Assembly: GCA_937904325.1 (NCBI GenBank)
Contig: CALGTK010000349.1
Location: forward strand, 1-32,866
Length of the DNA: 32,866 nt
Source of the DNA: an uncultured Planctomyces sp.
GTDB taxonomy: Bacteria > Planctomycetota > Planctomycetia > Planctomycetales > Planctomycetaceae
Direction of reading: 5' to 3'
The notes under the pieces are model-generated. The model was not told where the DNA came from. It worked only from the letters and a program-made list of their open reading frames with translations, and searched no databases. Each line of letters begins with the position of its first letter. Position 1 is the stretch's first letter. Shown piece by piece: positions 1,853 through 31,086 of the stretch. The position numbers and the translations under genes are program-made.

Positions 1853-3193
1853 TCAATTCACAGCTTGAACGGCGGCTGGTCCGATTGCTGGTTGTACCCA
1901 TGCCTGTTCATAGTCATCGATTTCAGATGGGTTGGGATGCTTGCGGCTCGATGTGATCCGCGCTCGGACATAGATCTCTGTCCCAGTGAATGTATAGCTT
2001 GCTGACGGCCCGTCGTGAGCAGCCAGAAGCTTGCCGATGTCTTTGCTGTACCGACGTGTTGCTCGGATCGCTTTGCCGTTTTTGTCCAGTACGGGTTTGG
2101 ATGTTTTGTCGTATCCGGAGTCCGTCCCGATAAATTCAATCCTGTAATCGACGCCGGCTTCGGCTTGTACTTCTACAGACAGGCCTCTGCTGGACGATTC
2201 GACTTTGGTAAGGGTGACACCCGAGGTCGAATAAAAGTCACCGCGTTCCATTGCTGGAATCATTGATTCGGGGTCGAGGGCCGCTGCAAGAACCATGACC
2301 CATCCACGACCGGGTTCACTCTTGCGGCTCGGAATGCCGTGATAATTGTGACCGTCGTCCGTCGCCAGGCCATACATCACTGGCAACTGAAGTTCCGCCA
2401 GCCGTTTGGTGAGAATGATGTCCCACATTCGCTCCGTCGATGCGTGTTCCTCGTTGCCAGAGTTATTGACTCCCGGATGACCGTTGTAGACTTCGTAGAA
2501 TTTCTCGCCGCGAATACGCATCAGGTCTTCGGCCGTCACTGCGTAGCCGAAGTTTGGATGATTGAGATGAATCATCATCGACTGCCCGCTTCGTTCACGC
2601 TGCGAAATCAAAGCGTCAACGTTTTTCTGAATCGTCTCCGAAACACTCTCGCCCCTCATGGGCGGAATCAGGTCTTTGACATTCGCCGCACACAGATGCA
2701 CGGGATACTTCCCGAATCGATCGGTGACTTCTTCTCCCTGGATGAGCAGAAACTTTCCGGGCTGACCGACTTTTGCGTTGACTTCGCTGAATGTCTTCAA
2801 GCGAACTTCGGTGCGTCCATCAACGAGTCGCTCATCGACCCAGCCTTCTGGAAATCGTTCTTTGAGTTTCCTGAGTGCGTCTTTGCCGGTTGGCTTCTTC
2901 GCGATATCAACCCAACGATTTTTTGACTGAGCAAGCACGTTGTGGTCTGTGAAGCAAAGAAAGTCATAGTCACGATCTCGATACCACAGCGCGATCATTT
3001 CGAGATAATTGTCACCGTCGCTCCAGAGCGAGTGCGTGTGCAGATTTCCTTTGAACCACTGCCTGTTTCCATCTTCAGAAAGAACGTCCGCTTTGGCATT
3101 AGAAACAGTGGCATCCTGCGATGCTGAATTCAGCAGCAGGAATCCGACAGCCAGGACTGCGAAGAAGCAAAGTACGCGACGAGACTTTTTCAT
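1853..3193 (-). CDS. Secreted PHP-domain metal-dependent phosphoesterase-like protein
   Basis: The start at 3193 (MKKSRRVLCFFAV) is preceded by GGAAAGG at good spacing and opens directly into a signal peptide with a hydrophobic core; an in-frame ATG at 3220 would only add nine polar residues. Length is 446 aa. PHP (polymerase and histidinol phosphatase) metal-binding signatures are visible: NLHTHSLWSDGD near residue 52, FTDHN near residue 83, HLNHPNFGY in the middle, and ATDDGHNY further on. These are the His/Asp clusters that bind two or three metals in the family. The C-terminal third looks beta-rich and lacks a motif I recognise. PHP proteins of this secreted type are probably extracytoplasmic hydrolases of phosphoesters; the substrate is unknown. 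The gene has its own 5' region, the gene-free stretch to 3955. Confidence 0.82.
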   Translation of the reverse strand: MKKSRRVLCFFAVLAVGFLLLNSASQDATVSNAKADVLSEDGNRQWFKGNLHTHSLWSDGDNYLEMIALWYRDRDYDFLCFTDHNVLAQSKNRWVDIAKKPTGKDALRKLKERFPEGWVDERLVDGRTEVRLKTFSEVNAKVGQPGKFLLIQGEEVTDRFGKYPVHLCAANVKDLIPPMRGESVSETIQKNVDALISQRERSGQSMMIHLNHPNFGYAVTAEDLMRIRGEKFYEVYNGHPGVNNSGNEEHASTERMWDIILTKRLAELQLPVMYGLATDDGHNYHGIPSRKSEPGRGWVMVLAAALDPESMIPAMERGDFYSTSGVTLTKVESSSRGLSVEVQAEAGVDYRIEFIGTDSGYDKTSKPVLDKNGKAIRATRRYSKDIGKLLAAHDGPSASYTFTGTEIYVRARITSSRKHPNPSEIDDYEQAWVQPAIGPAAVQAVN

Positions 3194-3955
3194 GACGACC
3201 TTTCCAGAATATGCCTGCACGTCGGGCAGATGTCGTGAATCACGGTGGAGAAACCCGTTGCTATTGATACATGAGTATGCGCTGCGGAACAGCGAATCGG
3301 CAATGCGCGGCCCTCAACGCGTCGAGACAATCGCGTGAACGATCATCCTGTACGTCAGCGCGAGAAATCATCGCTTATAAATTGTCGAAACCAACTTCTT
3401 TGAAGATCGATGATGCTCCATGATCGCGCAGTTGCAAAGGCAAGCTAACCCGAAACTCCGGACGTCGAAACGGGAGTCGATATAATGTTGAGAAACTCTG
3501 TCTACTTCGCCTGGAAAACATCGTGGCGACGCGATAGTATCCCGCCGCCCATTCGGGCGTGATAAAATACACCGCGACTTACAGAAGTAGACCAAAGACT
3601 CGGCAGGAGCTATTCGAGTCTTCCGCTGGAAACAGCGAATCATCACGGAGGTCCGGGTTTGACTGCCCGGCATGGATGCTTCGGCTTGCCGAAGTGAAGC
3701 CACTGCAGTTGAACCTGTGCTCGATTTTCGTCTGAACTTCAGACGCTCGAGGGAACGGATTCCTTCTCTCGTTTTCTGGCGACGCTCGGTAGTAGTTGTT
3801 GAGCCGCCGACAATCACTTCTGATTTCTTCAATCTCCTTTCGATGTTGATGGCAAACAGTAACGCCTGTCGAGCATTCCTCAGTGTGAGGAAATCCGGGC
3901 TGACGCAATTACGCCATACTTTTTATCGAAAATGTTTCAGCAGAGAGGCTGTCGC
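3194..3955. other. Long intergenic stretch between divergent genes, with two palindromes
   Basis: About 760 bp with no convincing gene: open frames here on both strands have arginine/serine-rich, low-quality translations and no supported starts. It holds the divergent regulatory regions of the PHP gene (minus) and the 272-aa gene (plus). Two perfect inverted repeats stand out: CTTCGGCTTGCCGAAG at 3679-3694 and TTCCTCAGTGTGAGGAA at 3876-3892. A perfect TATAAT at 3481-3486 has no recognisable -35 box. Confidence 0.6.
3876..3892. promoter_or_regulatory. Perfect inverted repeat upstream of the 272-aa gene
   Basis: TTCCTCA (3876-3882) and TGAGGAA (3886-3892) are perfect complements around GTG. 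The repeat lies 63 bp before the ATG at 3956, where an operator would be expected, and has no T run, so it is not an intrinsic terminator. Function is inferred from position only. Confidence 0.35.
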
Positions 3956-25895: not shown

Positions 25896-27326
25896 TCAGG
25901 CAAGCAGGTCCTCGACGACATTTCCGTGGACATCGGTGAGACGGTAGCGGCGACCCTGAAAGCGGAAGGTCAGTTTTGTGTGGTCGATGCCCAGGCAGTG
26001 GAGCAATGTGGCGTGCAGGTCGTGGACGTGGACCGGGTTCTCGGTGATGTTATAGCTGTAGTCATCGGTGCTGCCGTAAGTCTGTCCGCCTTTGATACCG
26101 CCGCCAGCCAGCCATAGACTGAAGCATCGAGGGTGATGGTCTCTTCCGTAATCGTCTTTCGTGAGATTTCCCTGGCAGTACACGGTGCGGCCGAATTCTC
26201 CTCCCCAGACGATCAGCGTGTCTTCGAGTAGACCTCGCTGCTTGAGGTCCAGCACGAGGGCCGCCGAAGCCTGATCCGTGTCTTTACATTGTTTGCCGAT
26301 GGCCGTTGGGAGTTTTGAATGCTGATCCCAACCACGGTGAAAGAGCTGCGTAAATCGGACTCCACGTTCCGCAAGACGTCGAGCGAGCAGGCAGTTGTAA
26401 GCGAATGTGCCCGGCACTTTTGCATCCTGCCCATAGAGTTCGAAAATGTGATCGGGCTCGGAAGACAGGTCGATCAAATCCGGCACCGAGGTCTGCATCC
26501 GGAATGCCATCTCGTACTGCGCCGTGCGCGTCGTGATTTCCGGATCGCCGGATTCTTCGAACTTCAGTGAGTTCAATTTCGCAAGATCATCCAGCATCCG
26601 CCTGCGAGTGCCACTGTCTACCCCCTTTGGGTTCGACAGGAACAGAACAGGATCGCCGGCCGAGCGAAACCGGACACCCTGGTACTTTGTCGGTAGAAAT
26701 CCACTGCCCCACAGACGATCGTAAAGTGGCTGCCCGCCCTCGCCCGAGACCATCGCCACGAAAGCCGGCAAGTCATCGTTGTCACTGCCCAGTCCGTAAG
26801 ACAGCCACGAACCGATACTCGGCCGGCCGGCCAGTTGAAACCCCGTTTGAAAGAACGTTATTGCCGGATCGTGATTGATCGCTTCGGTAAACATCGATCG
26901 AACGACGCAGATATCGTCGGCAATCTTCGCCGTGCGAGGCAATAGCTCGCTGAGGCTCGCTCCCGACGCACCATGCCGCTTGAACTTGAACATCGAGGGA
27001 GCGACCGGAAAGCTCTCCTGCTTCGACGTCATCCCGGTGAGCCGCTGCCCCTTCCGAATTGAATCCGGCAACTCAGTCGCCCGCAGATTCGCAAGCGATG
27101 GTTTTTCATCGAAGAGATCAATCTGAGATGGTGCCCCTGACTGAAAGAGGTAAATCACCCGCTTCGCTTTCACGGGAAGATTCGGTAAGCCACCAATCCC
27201 CGGAGCATTCGCTTTCGGAGCAGCTTGAGAGTCTCTCGCCAGCAACGAAGCCAGCGCGATCGATCCGAGCCCCGTTGCTGACTCAGACAAAAAAGTGCGA
27301 CGTTGCTGCAACATTGAATTATTCAT
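25896..27326 (-). CDS. DUF1501 family protein with Tat signal, partner of the PSCyt protein
   Basis: 476 aa from the ATG at 27326 ([16 protein letters not shown]), which has GGAG about 10 nt upstream; an in-frame start at 27371 is less likely. QRRTFLSES followed by a small-residue hydrophobic stretch is a twin-arginine signal, so it is exported folded. DUF1501 hallmarks: [91 protein letters not shown] and [23 protein letters not shown] near the C-terminus. Biochemical function is not established; in planctomycetes the gene is typically paired with PSCyt/DUF1549/DUF1553 genes, as here, although a small unknown gene sits between them. Confidence 0.93.
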
Positions 27327-27363: not shown

Positions 27364-27470
27364 CTATGCAAATATCCAAACTATGAACCCAAACACCGAC
27401 ACGAGCAGGAAGACGCTTATCAGTGCACAACCAATCAGCGAGATTCGGTCGTTGGCATAGTCTTTTTTTG
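27364..27470 (-). other. Slippery A-AAA-AAG site and -1-frame transmembrane extension
   Basis: On the minus strand seven A residues (27463-27469) are followed by G, forming A-AAA-AAG in the register needed for -1 slippage. The -1 frame continues GAC-TAT-GCC from 27462 to a TAG at 27364-27366, 32 codons, including the very hydrophobic [18 protein letters not shown] at the end. This frame has an in-frame TGA shortly upstream and no ATG, GTG or TTG of its own, so it can only be reached by frameshifting or by a one-base change in the A run. It stops 37 nt before the DUF1501 start. Confidence 0.6.
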
Positions 27471-27785
27471 CCCACGTTTGATTTCATTTTTCAGATTACC
27501 CCAATCCTCGAATCGCTGGATGTCTGTCACACAAAGCCCAAAGTTACCATACAGCTGTTCGTGCCCTTCGACTGTCTGACACTTTTTCGATGTGAGCATT
27601 GTCCGGGACGTCTGCTCGATTGCTTCTTTGAGAAATGCTGCCGCAAAGCTAAGACATCCGTCGCGATTTGTTCGAATGCGAAGATGATCTCTGCATTCAA
27701 GTTGTTCGACATGTGACTTTGCCTTGCGGAACTCAACTGCCTGTTCGAGACGGTTCACGATTTCCAGAATTTCCTCGTCGGTCAT
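27435..27785 (-). CDS. Unrecognised 116-aa protein, probable frameshift gene
   Basis: I do not recognise this protein. The ATG at 27785 is 6 nt after the stop of the large PSCyt gene, so it is in that operon. The zero-frame product has 116 aa, with a helical start (MTDEEILEIVNRLEQAVEFRKA), the segment DHLRIRTNRDGCLSFAAAFLKEA and no membrane helix; its last eight residues (TMPTTESR) look random. At codons 106-108 the sequence is CAA-AAA-AAG, containing the A-AAA-AAG slippery heptamer (27462-27468). In the -1 frame the sequence then stays open for 32 codons and encodes a transmembrane helix, so the true product may be a 140-aa membrane-anchored protein. Base composition is more A/T-rich than its neighbours. 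Roles such as small regulator or accessory of the PSCyt/DUF1501 pair are guesses. Confidence 0.65.
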   Translation of the reverse strand: MTDEEILEIVNRLEQAVEFRKAKSHVEQLECRDHLRIRTNRDGCLSFAAAFLKEAIEQTSRTMLTSKKCQTVEGHEQLYGNFGLCVTDIQRFEDWGNLKNEIKRGQKKTMPTTESR

Positions 27786-27791
27786 GCCTCA

Positions 27792-30700
27792 CTATTCCTT
27801 TGTGACAGCCTCATCCAGGTTGAAGATCGTGCTGCACAGGGTTGTCCAGGCGGCGAGTTCATCCACCTCGACGGCTGTGTCGACAGGCCATTCGCCCGTC
27901 TTGATCAAAGCGTCTGCTGCACCACGCTCGCCACTGAACTGCTGGCGATGATGGGCCAGACTCGCGAGCAGCACCCTTTGTTCCTGTTCACCGGGTGGCC
28001 TGCTCAGCACACGTTCAAAGATGTGAGTCAGGCAAGCCAGGTCGCTCTGTCCGGTTGCCAAAGTGTTTTGAGCAAGCACGCGAGCCGCTTCGACGAACGT
28101 CACATCGTTAAGTAGATTGAGTGCCTGCAGCGGCGTGTTGGTCCGTGACTGCCGAACTTCGCAGGACTCGCGGCCGGCTGCGTCAAAGTTCGTCATCATT
28201 GGTGGCGCGACGGTTCTCTTCCAATAGGTGTAAAGGCTGCGGCGATAGAGGTCCGGGCCGTGGTCCTGCTCGTAAGTCGTGTCCGAAGCAATTTCTTTCA
28301 GTAGTCCTTCGGGTTGGTACGGTCGAACCGATGGGCCTCCGAGTTCCTCAGTCAACACCCCGCTGGCCAGCAATGCCTGATCACGAATCATTTCCGCCGA
28401 CAACCGACCTCGTGGACCTCGAGACAGCAATCTGTTTTCAGGATCACCGTTCTGCCTTCCACCTGTTGAACTCTGCCGTTGCGACAATTGCCGGTAGGTA
28501 TTGCTCATCACGATCGTCTTGATAAGCCGCTTGACGTCCCAGCCGGATTCCATAAATTCAACGGCCAGCCAGTCGAGCAGGTCTGGATGGCTTGGACGTT
28601 CGCCTTGAACACCAAAGTCTTCAGTCGTTTTTACGATGCCCGTCCCAAAAATGTCTCGCCAGAATCGGTTCACCGTCACACGAGCCGTCAACGGGTTCTC
28701 AGAACTGACCAGCCACTTCGCCAGACCAAGCCGATTGGCAGGAACCTCATCCAGTAGAGGCGGCAGCGCTGCCGGAGTTCCAAACGTCACACGTTCACCC
28801 GGACGATCATACTGCCCTCGCGCCAGAACATGAGTCTCACGCGGAGTTTCCATTTCCTGCATGACCATGACCGTGGGAATCGTTCGTCGAAATTCAGACA
28901 AAGCTCGGCGAGTTCGGTCTGCATTTCGAACAGTTGAAACTAATGATTTGGGACCACCGACTCGCCAGAAGAAGTAGGTCAGCTTGTCGTGAGCCAAGGG
29001 GGAAATTTCATCGACCGGAAGGGCCAGCAGATCTTTCAGGCTCCGAGTTTCAGCAATGGATGAAATTTCGGCACTTTCAACAACTCGGTCATAGATTCGA
29101 ACGTCGTCAATGCGGCCATAAAAGTTCGAATTCCCGGCTCCGATACGAAAGGGTTCGTCGGAAGCGAAAGACTGATTGATCCCATCAAGGTTTGCTTTGT
29201 GAGCGACTCGTACTCCGTCGACGTACAGCTGAATGGCAGCCGATGTTCGGGTTCCATCGTAGGTTGCGAGCAGATGAACCCATCGTCCGGCAGGAATGGC
29301 TGCTTTTGTCTCGACTCTCAGCGAATCGTCCAGCCACCGTTTGACCAGATTGAACTGCACTTTGCCTTCATCGGTGATGTGCAGGTTGTAGCCTGCGCCC
29401 CGATCAATCAGGAGCATTTTCGAAACGACAGTGCCGGCCTTTAGCTCGGGCATGAAAACATGAGCCGACAACGAAAAGCGATCGAAGTAGCCGAACGTTC
29501 CTCCCTCAGTAAGCTCAACAAATCCCTGACCGCTCAGCTGGATGGCCTTTCCATTGCGTCCCTCAGTGAACTCGACGCTGCCGTTCGCTGTGACTCTGAC
29601 TGGCTTGTGCGCCCGGGCGATGGGATCAACGAGGGTAAACTCAAGAGAATCAAGCGGAGCGTGAAGGTGCAATTGGCGGCCGATTTGCCACTCGTCGGGA
29701 ATCCTATCCTGTTGTTTCTTCCAGTTCCCGTTTCTCCATCTTGAAAACTGGTTTTTCAACTTCGACCTGCCTGCGAATAATTGCTTCATTGCTTCGTCAT
29801 AGTTCCTTGTGAGCTGGCTTAGCTCAGCACCTTGCTGGTCAGTCGGAGCTTTGACGTACGGCGGTGAGTTGCCCTCTTTCAGAGCTCTTCCGTTTTCCGG
29901 AATGTTGTTGAAGCAGGAGAAGAGCTGGTAGTATTCCTTATGCGAAAGTGGGTCGAACTTGTGGCTGTGGCATCTTGCACAACCCATCGTCAGACCCTGC
30001 CAGACGGTGAACGTGGTGTCGACTCGGTCGACGACGTACTCGACTTGAAACTCTTCCGGAACGATGCCGCCTTCCGCATTGCCTCGATGATTGCGGTTGA
30101 ACCCGGTGGCAACCCTTTGGTCAAGCGTTGCGTCTGGCAGCAGGTCACCGGCAAGCTGCTCGATCGTGAACTGATCGAACGGCATGTTCTGGTGAAACGC
30201 TTCGAGCACCCAGTCCCTCCACCGCCACATATCTCGCGGCCCGTCCGTCTGATAGCCATTCGTGTCTGCGTACCGGGCTGCGTCGAGCCAGCGAATCGTC
30301 ATCCGCTCGGCGTAGCGAGGTGACTTGAGCAACCGGTCGACGACTCGTTCATAGGCGGCAGGCGAATCATCTGTCAGGAATTCTCGAATCTCGTCAGGAG
30401 TCGGTGGCAACCCCGTCAGATCGAACGAAACTCTTCGCAACAATGTTCGACGATCGGCCTCAGCGGACGGATTGAGGCCTTCCCGATCCAAACGTGCAAG
30501 GATGAAACCATCAATCGGATTCTTCACCCAGCCACTAGTCGAAACGCCCGCTGCCTTCGAACGAGATGGCGTCACGAACGACCAGTGTTGCTGCCATTCG
30601 GCACCGGACTCTATCCACTGTTTGATCGTTGAAATCTGGGTGGCGGTTAGGTTTCTGCCGGAGTCAGACGGAGGCATACGCACGTCCGAATCCGCCGTCG

Positions 30701-31007
30701 TGATGCGTCGAAAGAGTTCACTCTTTGTGGAGTCTCCAGCGACAACGTTCTGATGCGCGACAGATCTTCTGAAGAGTCCATCTCTGGAATCAAGACGAAG
30801 CTCTGCCTGCCGCTGCTCGGCGTCTGGCCCGTGACATTCGAAACAATGGTCCGCAAGAATTGGCCGAACGTCCCGATTGAAGTCGACACCCACAGGTTCA
30901 GCAGACGAAACCGGCTCGACAAAGCAGCTAACACAGATCGCCGCTGTCAGAGCAAGTGATCGTCCAAAGAAGGCGGGCACCAGCCGATGAATGTCGAAAA
31001 GAATCAT
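27792..31007 (-). CDS. Planctomycete cytochrome-type protein: PSCyt1, DUF1549, LamG, DUF1553
   Basis: 1071 aa from the ATG at 31007, which opens into a signal peptide (FFGRSLALTAAICVSCFVEP) with GAGG upstream. The frame extends to an ATG at 31064 and a GTG at 31082, but those lie in a dispersed repeat. Domains in order: PSCyt1 with heme motif CFECH (about 55-59) in RPILADHCFECHGPDAEQRQ; DUF1549/PSCyt2 with NPIDGFILARLDREGL, DLTGLPPTPDEI and a second heme motif CARCH (about 343-347) in MGCARCHSHKFDPLS; a LamG-like jelly roll (about 450-650; WVHLLATYDGT, IQLYVDGVRVA, RIDDVRIYDRVV); and DUF1553/PSD1 (about 745-1000; NRFWRDIFGTGIVKTTEDFG, RQSRTNTPLQALNLLND). It is exported, probably binds two c-type hemes, and may bind a glycan through LamG. 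Enzymatic activity is unknown. It heads the operon with the small gene and DUF1501. Confidence 0.93.
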   Translation of the reverse strand: MILFDIHRLVPAFFGRSLALTAAICVSCFVEPVSSAEPVGVDFNRDVRPILADHCFECHGPDAEQRQAELRLDSRDGLFRRSVAHQNVVAGDSTKSELFRRITTADSDVRMPPSDSGRNLTATQISTIKQWIESGAEWQQHWSFVTPSRSKAAGVSTSGWVKNPIDGFILARLDREGLNPSAEADRRTLLRRVSFDLTGLPPTPDEIREFLTDDSPAAYERVVDRLLKSPRYAERMTIRWLDAARYADTNGYQTDGPRDMWRWRDWVLEAFHQNMPFDQFTIEQLAGDLLPDATLDQRVATGFNRNHRGNAEGGIVPEEFQVEYVVDRVDTTFTVWQGLTMGCARCHSHKFDPLSHKEYYQLFSCFNNIPENGRALKEGNSPPYVKAPTDQQGAELSQLTRNYDEAMKQLFAGRSKLKNQFSRWRNGNWKKQQDRIPDEWQIGRQLHLHAPLDSLEFTLVDPIARAHKPVRVTANGSVEFTEGRNGKAIQLSGQGFVELTEGGTFGYFDRFSLSAHVFMPELKAGTVVSKMLLIDRGAGYNLHITDEGKVQFNLVKRWLDDSLRVETKAAIPAGRWVHLLATYDGTRTSAAIQLYVDGVRVAHKANLDGINQSFASDEPFRIGAGNSNFYGRIDDVRIYDRVVESAEISSIAETRSLKDLLALPVDEISPLAHDKLTYFFWRVGGPKSLVSTVRNADRTRRALSEFRRTIPTVMVMQEMETPRETHVLARGQYDRPGERVTFGTPAALPPLLDEVPANRLGLAKWLVSSENPLTARVTVNRFWRDIFGTGIVKTTEDFGVQGERPSHPDLLDWLAVEFMESGWDVKRLIKTIVMSNTYRQLSQRQSSTGGRQNGDPENRLLSRGPRGRLSAEMIRDQALLASGVLTEELGGPSVRPYQPEGLLKEIASDTTYEQDHGPDLYRRSLYTYWKRTVAPPMMTNFDAAGRESCEVRQSRTNTPLQALNLLNDVTFVEAARVLAQNTLATGQSDLACLTHIFERVLSRPPGEQEQRVLLASLAHHRQQFSGERGAADALIKTGEWPVDTAVEVDELAAWTTLCSTIFNLDEAVTKE

Positions 31008-31053
31008 AAGGAGCCTCAAAAGTCCGGTTGCAGACCGCGCAGTCTTAGAACTA

Positions 31054-31086
31054 ATTCTATTCATGTTCCTTCGTGTCTCCACAGAG
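31054..31086. repeat. Second copy of the CACGAAA-type dispersed repeat
   Basis: The plus-strand sequence ATTCTATTCATGTTCCTTCG and the following GTGTCTCC match the common form of this repeat and resemble 25852-25874. It overlaps the longer possible N-terminus of the PSCyt gene, which argues for the later start at 31007. Confidence 0.5.

Follow-up and report, generated by a model that had tools for sequence, protein, structure and literature searches.

A one-base break in an A-run probably parts a small planctomycete protein from its C-terminal membrane anchor

Introduction

The heptamer A_AAA_AAG is slippery for the E. coli ribosome even in its bare form, for which a shift of about 0.3% without stimulators has been described, rising to no more than about 3.7% when the 3' context is optimal (PMC4066793). 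The slipperiness of AAG is affected by the number of lysine tRNAs, one or two (PMC5009743). A different route to a second product is described for dnaX of Thermus thermophilus, where transcriptional slippage yields the gamma form (PMC1088944; PMC5009743). Productive slippage in bacteria is described for runs of nine As, or of eight in some organisms, with shorter runs allowed for some bacteria (PMC1088944). For frame transitions found by computation, Antonov et al. (2013; PMC3711429) speculated that an indel is a likelier cause than a sequencing error when the break lies close to the 3' end, and expected unclustered, BLASTp-confirmed transitions to be sequencing errors and not genuine indels.

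Here we analyze a small gene of a planctomycete, located between the genes of a DUF1553 and a DUF1501 protein, in which such a heptamer joins a soluble open reading frame (ORF) to an open −1 frame encoding a transmembrane helix. The window, meaning the whole stretch of DNA that was analyzed, is an entire contig (C349) of 32,866 bases from an assembly of 488 contigs and 7.97 Mb.

Results

The small gene starts six bases past the stop codon of the DUF1553 gene (Table 1). The seven T at 27463–27469 of the + strand are seven A in the gene, and CAA AAA AAG forms an in-phase heptamer of the X_XXZ_ZZN type known from programmed −1 frameshift genes. An initial annotation of this DNA had placed CAA-AAA-AAG at codons 106–108, and the sequence agrees with both the coordinates and the phase. 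It had further described a zero frame that ends eight codons after the heptamer and a −1 frame of 32 codons that encodes a transmembrane segment and closes before the DUF1501 start; both descriptions hold, and the last residues of the zero frame appear to be out-of-frame filler. Its remark that the −1 frame has no start of its own is correct in the sense that no start leaves more than 12 codons. We found no repeats around the small gene.

Table 1. Positions of the small gene, its two frames, its neighbors and the dnaX A-run. Coordinates are those of the window unless a locus is named.
Feature	Position	Strand	Remarks
Zero-frame ORF, 116 aa	27435..27785	-	stop 27435-27437; ATG first base 27785
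Zero-frame ORF, residues 1-107			soluble region; family small and unnamed; 62% identity to G005 homolog, residues 1-108
Zero-frame ORF, last 8 residues, TMPTTESR			out-of-frame filler
A7G run with in-phase A_AAA_AAG, codons 106-108 CAA AAA AAG	27462..27469	-	frame-break point
-1-frame continuation, 32-33 codons plus TAG (27364-27366)	27364..27465	-	DRxSLxGCA motif and one transmembrane helix
Upstream neighbor, PSCyt1-DUF1549-LamG-DUF1553 protein	27792..31082	-	family domain matches
Downstream neighbor, DUF1501 protein	25896..27326	-	likely start ATG, first base 27326
Own dnaX A10 run, in frame	L162 2672-2681 (G000:C374)		21 further dnaX loci among L165-L191

Judged by composition and homology, the −1 tail is genuine coding sequence. 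Its peak Kyte-Doolittle mean over 19 residues reaches 2.74. We compared it with 4221 stretches of 33 codons that are open in the −1 frame of long ORFs in the genome sample, and none reached this value; the peak of the zero-frame protein on the same scale is 0.36. A codon-pair model, for which 705 ORFs served as training set, gives the tail a coding score that about 1% of 2201 open off-frame stretches reach; among 3477 coding windows the score ranks at the 17th percentile. In a single BLASTP comparison with the tail of the homolog from genome G005 (see below), 16 of 31 residues are identical (E 1e-12). Profile A1, which comprises this homolog and the zero-frame part of the window gene, with the window tail left out, matches the −1 tail separately at positions 106–141 (E 3.6e-5). 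Nei-Gojobori counts between the window gene and its G005 homolog gave pN 0.224 and pS 0.757 for the head and pN 0.296 and pS 0.752 for the tail, and both parts look constrained in this pairwise comparison, in which synonymous sites are saturated. Since the tail contains neither a stop nor a second break, a long-dead gene is unlikely.

The homolog in G005 (CALDJX010000501.1, a MAG named 'uncultured Planctomyces sp.') is syntenic, belongs to the same genus and consists of a single 144-aa frame that likewise lies between DUF1553 and DUF1501 genes. Head and tail of the window gene align to it without a gap at the junction, where it reads GRKVDYVSDRLSLLGCAL (codons CGA GGA CGG AAA GTT GAT TAC) and has no A-run. 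The second homolog (G181, JAJDEL010000183.1, a 'Planctomicrobium sp.' MAG) is about 29% identical and also a single 144-aa frame. This zero frame contains the motif DRFCLLGCA and ends in a hydrophobic tail; an A-run is again absent. The heptamer thus occurs in neither of the two clear homologs, whose tails both belong to the zero frame, and the DRxSLxGCA motif of the window's −1 tail is common to these relatives. Unbroken homologs together with colinear homology across the break are what is expected of a singleton caused by a homopolymer indel. The design that they share is accordingly one protein with the anchor at its C-terminus; of the three sequences, only the window gene has the heptamer, a comparison that draws on two clear relatives, one of them the 29% identical protein.

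A first scan of genome contigs for the small gene returned no relative; a second scan gave at least the two homologs described above. The search with the window protein at E 0.01 found matches in 4 of 59 relatives (the window's own genome, G005 and, weakly, G031 and G023), and the genus search in two of six genomes (own and G005). Across the family, profile A1 at E 0.001 matched 3 of 170 genomes (own, G005 and G181), the order search covering the same 170, and the A4 search at E 0.01 matched 5 of 170, adding weak matches in G151 and G171. A draw from the whole phylum, with about ten best candidates scored per genome, gave one match among 392 genomes, namely the window's own.

Four candidates were not counted as homologs. 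L011 and L012 are overlapped by open frames of 80–220 codons that lack a strongly hydrophobic segment, and the match in L018 spans 57 residues (E 0.0089). The fourth, L019 (E 0.009), may be a remote relative: its 176-aa zero frame closes with LSNLGCG followed by a hydrophobic tail. This frame (L019 1474–2004) lies about 0.7 kb from an ORF at 2740–3414, which by eye resembles, and may encode, a TIR domain. The best Pfam match of the window protein was the TMEM132 Ig domain, below the cut-off (E 0.0058), and that of the distant relative was Imm32 (E 0.094). PHROGs returned two matches of unknown function for the window protein (E 0.027 and 0.061) and none for the relatives, and NCBIfam had no match for the protein. 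AlphaFold gave a poor model from the three-row alignment A5 (mean pLDDT 46.2).

We compared the slot between the DUF1553 and DUF1501 genes in G001, G003, G004 and G005, leaving out the incomplete genome G002. The DUF1501 neighbor is 96% identical in G003, 95% in G005, 93% in G001 and 80% in G004; despite this close neighbor, the small gene of G005 is only 62% identical to that of the window. The 186-base gap of G001 and the short one of G004 hold no family member, and the slot of G003 has different content. The absence of the family from these three slots indicates that its loss or truncation is tolerated in the genus, and going by these comparisons the small gene is accessory and dispensable.

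The content of the slot differs among close relatives. In G003 (L143 807–1500) it holds a 38-codon frame (830–946), part of which is hydrophobic, and in antisense an ORF of 131 aa for which Pfam gave no match. DUF1501 paralogues form a very large set in the window's own genome, with at least 58 DUF1501-protein matches at E ≤1e-100 among the best 150 of 223 candidates scored.

We scanned 1,496,294 sampled bases (121 pieces including the window) for homopolymers. Runs of at least seven with a coding frame upstream number 80, and the frame closes within 30 codons in 11 of them. Three of these 11 have a new frame with a positive coding score; two, L043 and L085, have their own start near the run, leaving the window site as the sole run of this length with such a frame and no near start (1 of 80). 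Runs of five or six gave nine more places with a positive score and no near start, e.g., L080, L076 and L026. The scan is hence not specific, and shows only that runs of at least seven are seldom broken in the sample.

The same sampled bases hold 21 in-phase A_AAA_AAG sites in coding frames, 16 of which continue for at least 37 codons, while one leaves its piece. The frames of the remaining four close within 20 codons, namely at the window site, in a transposase, in L079 and in L088. In the transposase (L103 5968–6813), the heptamer lies one codon before the end of the upstream frame. Its orfB is in the −1 frame, carries HTH_21 and rve domains and also has its own GTG 27 bases further on; we read the element as IS3-type. 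The heptamer in L103 is likely a genuine frameshift site in the same genome. No lysine tRNA was among the 10 tRNAs that ARAGORN found in the sampled pieces and a few further loci of the own genome.

As a control we examined dnaX; of the 30 genomes searched, 29 gave the gene. In 22 of these 29 genes, an A9 or A10 run lies within codons 401–523 of the stop-to-stop frame, and the other seven have none. The farther of the other-frame stops follows at a median of 3 codons past the run in the 22 genes, compared with a median of 38 codons at 870 positions drawn at random from the 3' portions of all 29 genes; in two of the 22 (L179 and L185), one other-frame stop is 19 or 25 codons away. All six genus members, the window's own genome included, have an A10 run with other-frame stops 0 and 1 codons on. 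Judged by this layout, a Thermus-like transcriptional slippage to a short dnaX form looks conserved in the group. A brief literature search found no report of slippage in planctomycete dnaX; the one paper that it returned names 'Planctomycet' in a table of phyla.

Discussion

The small gene is very probably an accessory member of its family, whose normal product is an anchored protein of about 140 aa and whose frame is broken by one base in the A-run, with a real indel somewhat favored over an error. In this product, a soluble domain would be followed by a C-terminal membrane anchor. A length difference of one base in the A-run, directly before the anchor, would then break the frame, and plain translation would give the 116-aa form without the anchor. 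The length difference may well be a real and recent indel, either of the genome itself or of the dominant strain, and an occasional slip of the ribosome at A_AAA_AAG could still supply some anchored protein.

The initial annotation had left the choice between two forms made by design, which it put first in its title, and an indel, and had proposed a comparison of homologs. Both clear relatives are uninterrupted and free of the A-run, which speaks for the indel branch, and the case that would have told against its proposal altogether, homologs lacking the hydrophobic tail, is excluded for these two. The branch that found no support is the one in which the cell makes two forms by design through a programmed −1 shift at A_AAA_AAG, one soluble (116 aa) and the other anchored (140 aa); we regard it as very unlikely. 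The in-phase heptamer with its dnaX phasing and a homologous, strongly hydrophobic −1 tail that has no usable start are what such a gene would show, and the transposase of the same genome suggests that the host may be able to shift at this heptamer. However, in the relatives the tail is part of the zero frame and no heptamer is present, and most in-phase heptamers in this genome sit in ordinary frames that simply read on. The search for stimulators gave no sign of programming, in tests of little power. Pairing with the anti-Shine-Dalgarno sequence is weak (−2.6 kcal/mol) compared with the transposase site (−4.4 kcal/mol) and with plain sites, which reach −9.3 kcal/mol. The 60 bases downstream have a minimum free energy that ranks at the 44th percentile among 600 random 60-mers, on a scale of little power that puts the transposase site at the 37th, and the downstream fold differs from shuffled sequences by z −1.2 to −1.7, likewise a low-power test. 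All these measures have low power, the transposase as positive control being unremarkable on the same scales; as far as they reach, they bear out the doubt already voiced about a Shine-Dalgarno sequence and a stem-loop.

A switch at the A-run that toggles the anchor on and off, by transcriptional slippage or by phase variation, is quite unlikely as well. A homopolymer does lie at the frame junction, and RNA polymerase may slip on long A-runs of the kind kept, as A9 or A10 in a Thermus-like layout, by the dnaX genes of the own genome and of most relatives examined. Yet the seven As of the window fall below the lengths described for productive bacterial slippage in the account of PMC1088944, a conserved run of at least eight A or T, as would be expected of programmed slippage, is absent at this place from the small gene and from its two relatives, and A7 runs with an upstream coding frame are common, numbering 36 in the sample. 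The notion of two overlapping genes without any relation, or of a −1 tail that is open by chance, can be given practically no weight. It fits the ordinary stop of the zero frame, but it is contradicted by the single frames of the relatives, by the homology and colinearity of the tail with a relative's C-terminus and by the tail's want of a start leaving more than 12 codons.

If the one-base break is accepted, the difference may be a recent mutation or an error of assembly or sequencing, and we lean slightly towards the mutation. Long homopolymers, including the in-frame A10 of dnaX, are seldom broken in the sample, which favors a real indel, as does the place of the break near the 3' end if the speculation of Antonov et al. 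(2013) holds. The break is also unclustered and confirmed by BLASTp, and the expectation of Antonov et al. (2013) for such cases therefore counts against our lean. We further consider it unlikely, though conceivable, that the one-base change made the anchor dependent on unaided slippage at A_AAA_AAG, with a small and perhaps tunable membrane-bound fraction as the result. The locus would then be a newly born recoding gene that arose by accident, and its host one in which dnaX probably depends on an A-run already.

For annotation, the gene seems better entered as a membrane protein with a disrupted frame, belonging to a small planctomycete family, than as a dual-product gene. More generally, a slippery heptamer followed by an open, membrane-coding −1 frame is no evidence of programmed frameshifting before relatives have been compared. 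The A9 or A10 run in most of the planctomycete dnaX genes examined appears to be the more promising recoding lead.

Compared with described systems, the window gene has the same A_AAA_AAG heptamer in the same phase as E. coli dnaX, but it differs in that no stimulator was found and that the heptamer is absent from two relatives. Furthermore, the −1 product would be the longer form in the window gene, whereas it is described as the shorter form, gamma, in E. coli dnaX. Thermus dnaX (A9) and the window gene both have an A-run at the frame junction, unlike in length and conservation, as the seven As of the window are not conserved. The better Thermus-type counterpart in the window's genome is its own dnaX with A10, and the 22 planctomycete dnaX genes have the same layout of an A-run and near stops as that of Thermus thermophilus. 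The singleton frame transitions of Antonov et al. resemble the window gene in concerning one gene, in homology of the other frame and in a break at a homopolymer, and, as these authors describe them, also in their position near the 3' end and in a motif absent from homologs; in the features tested, the two do not differ.
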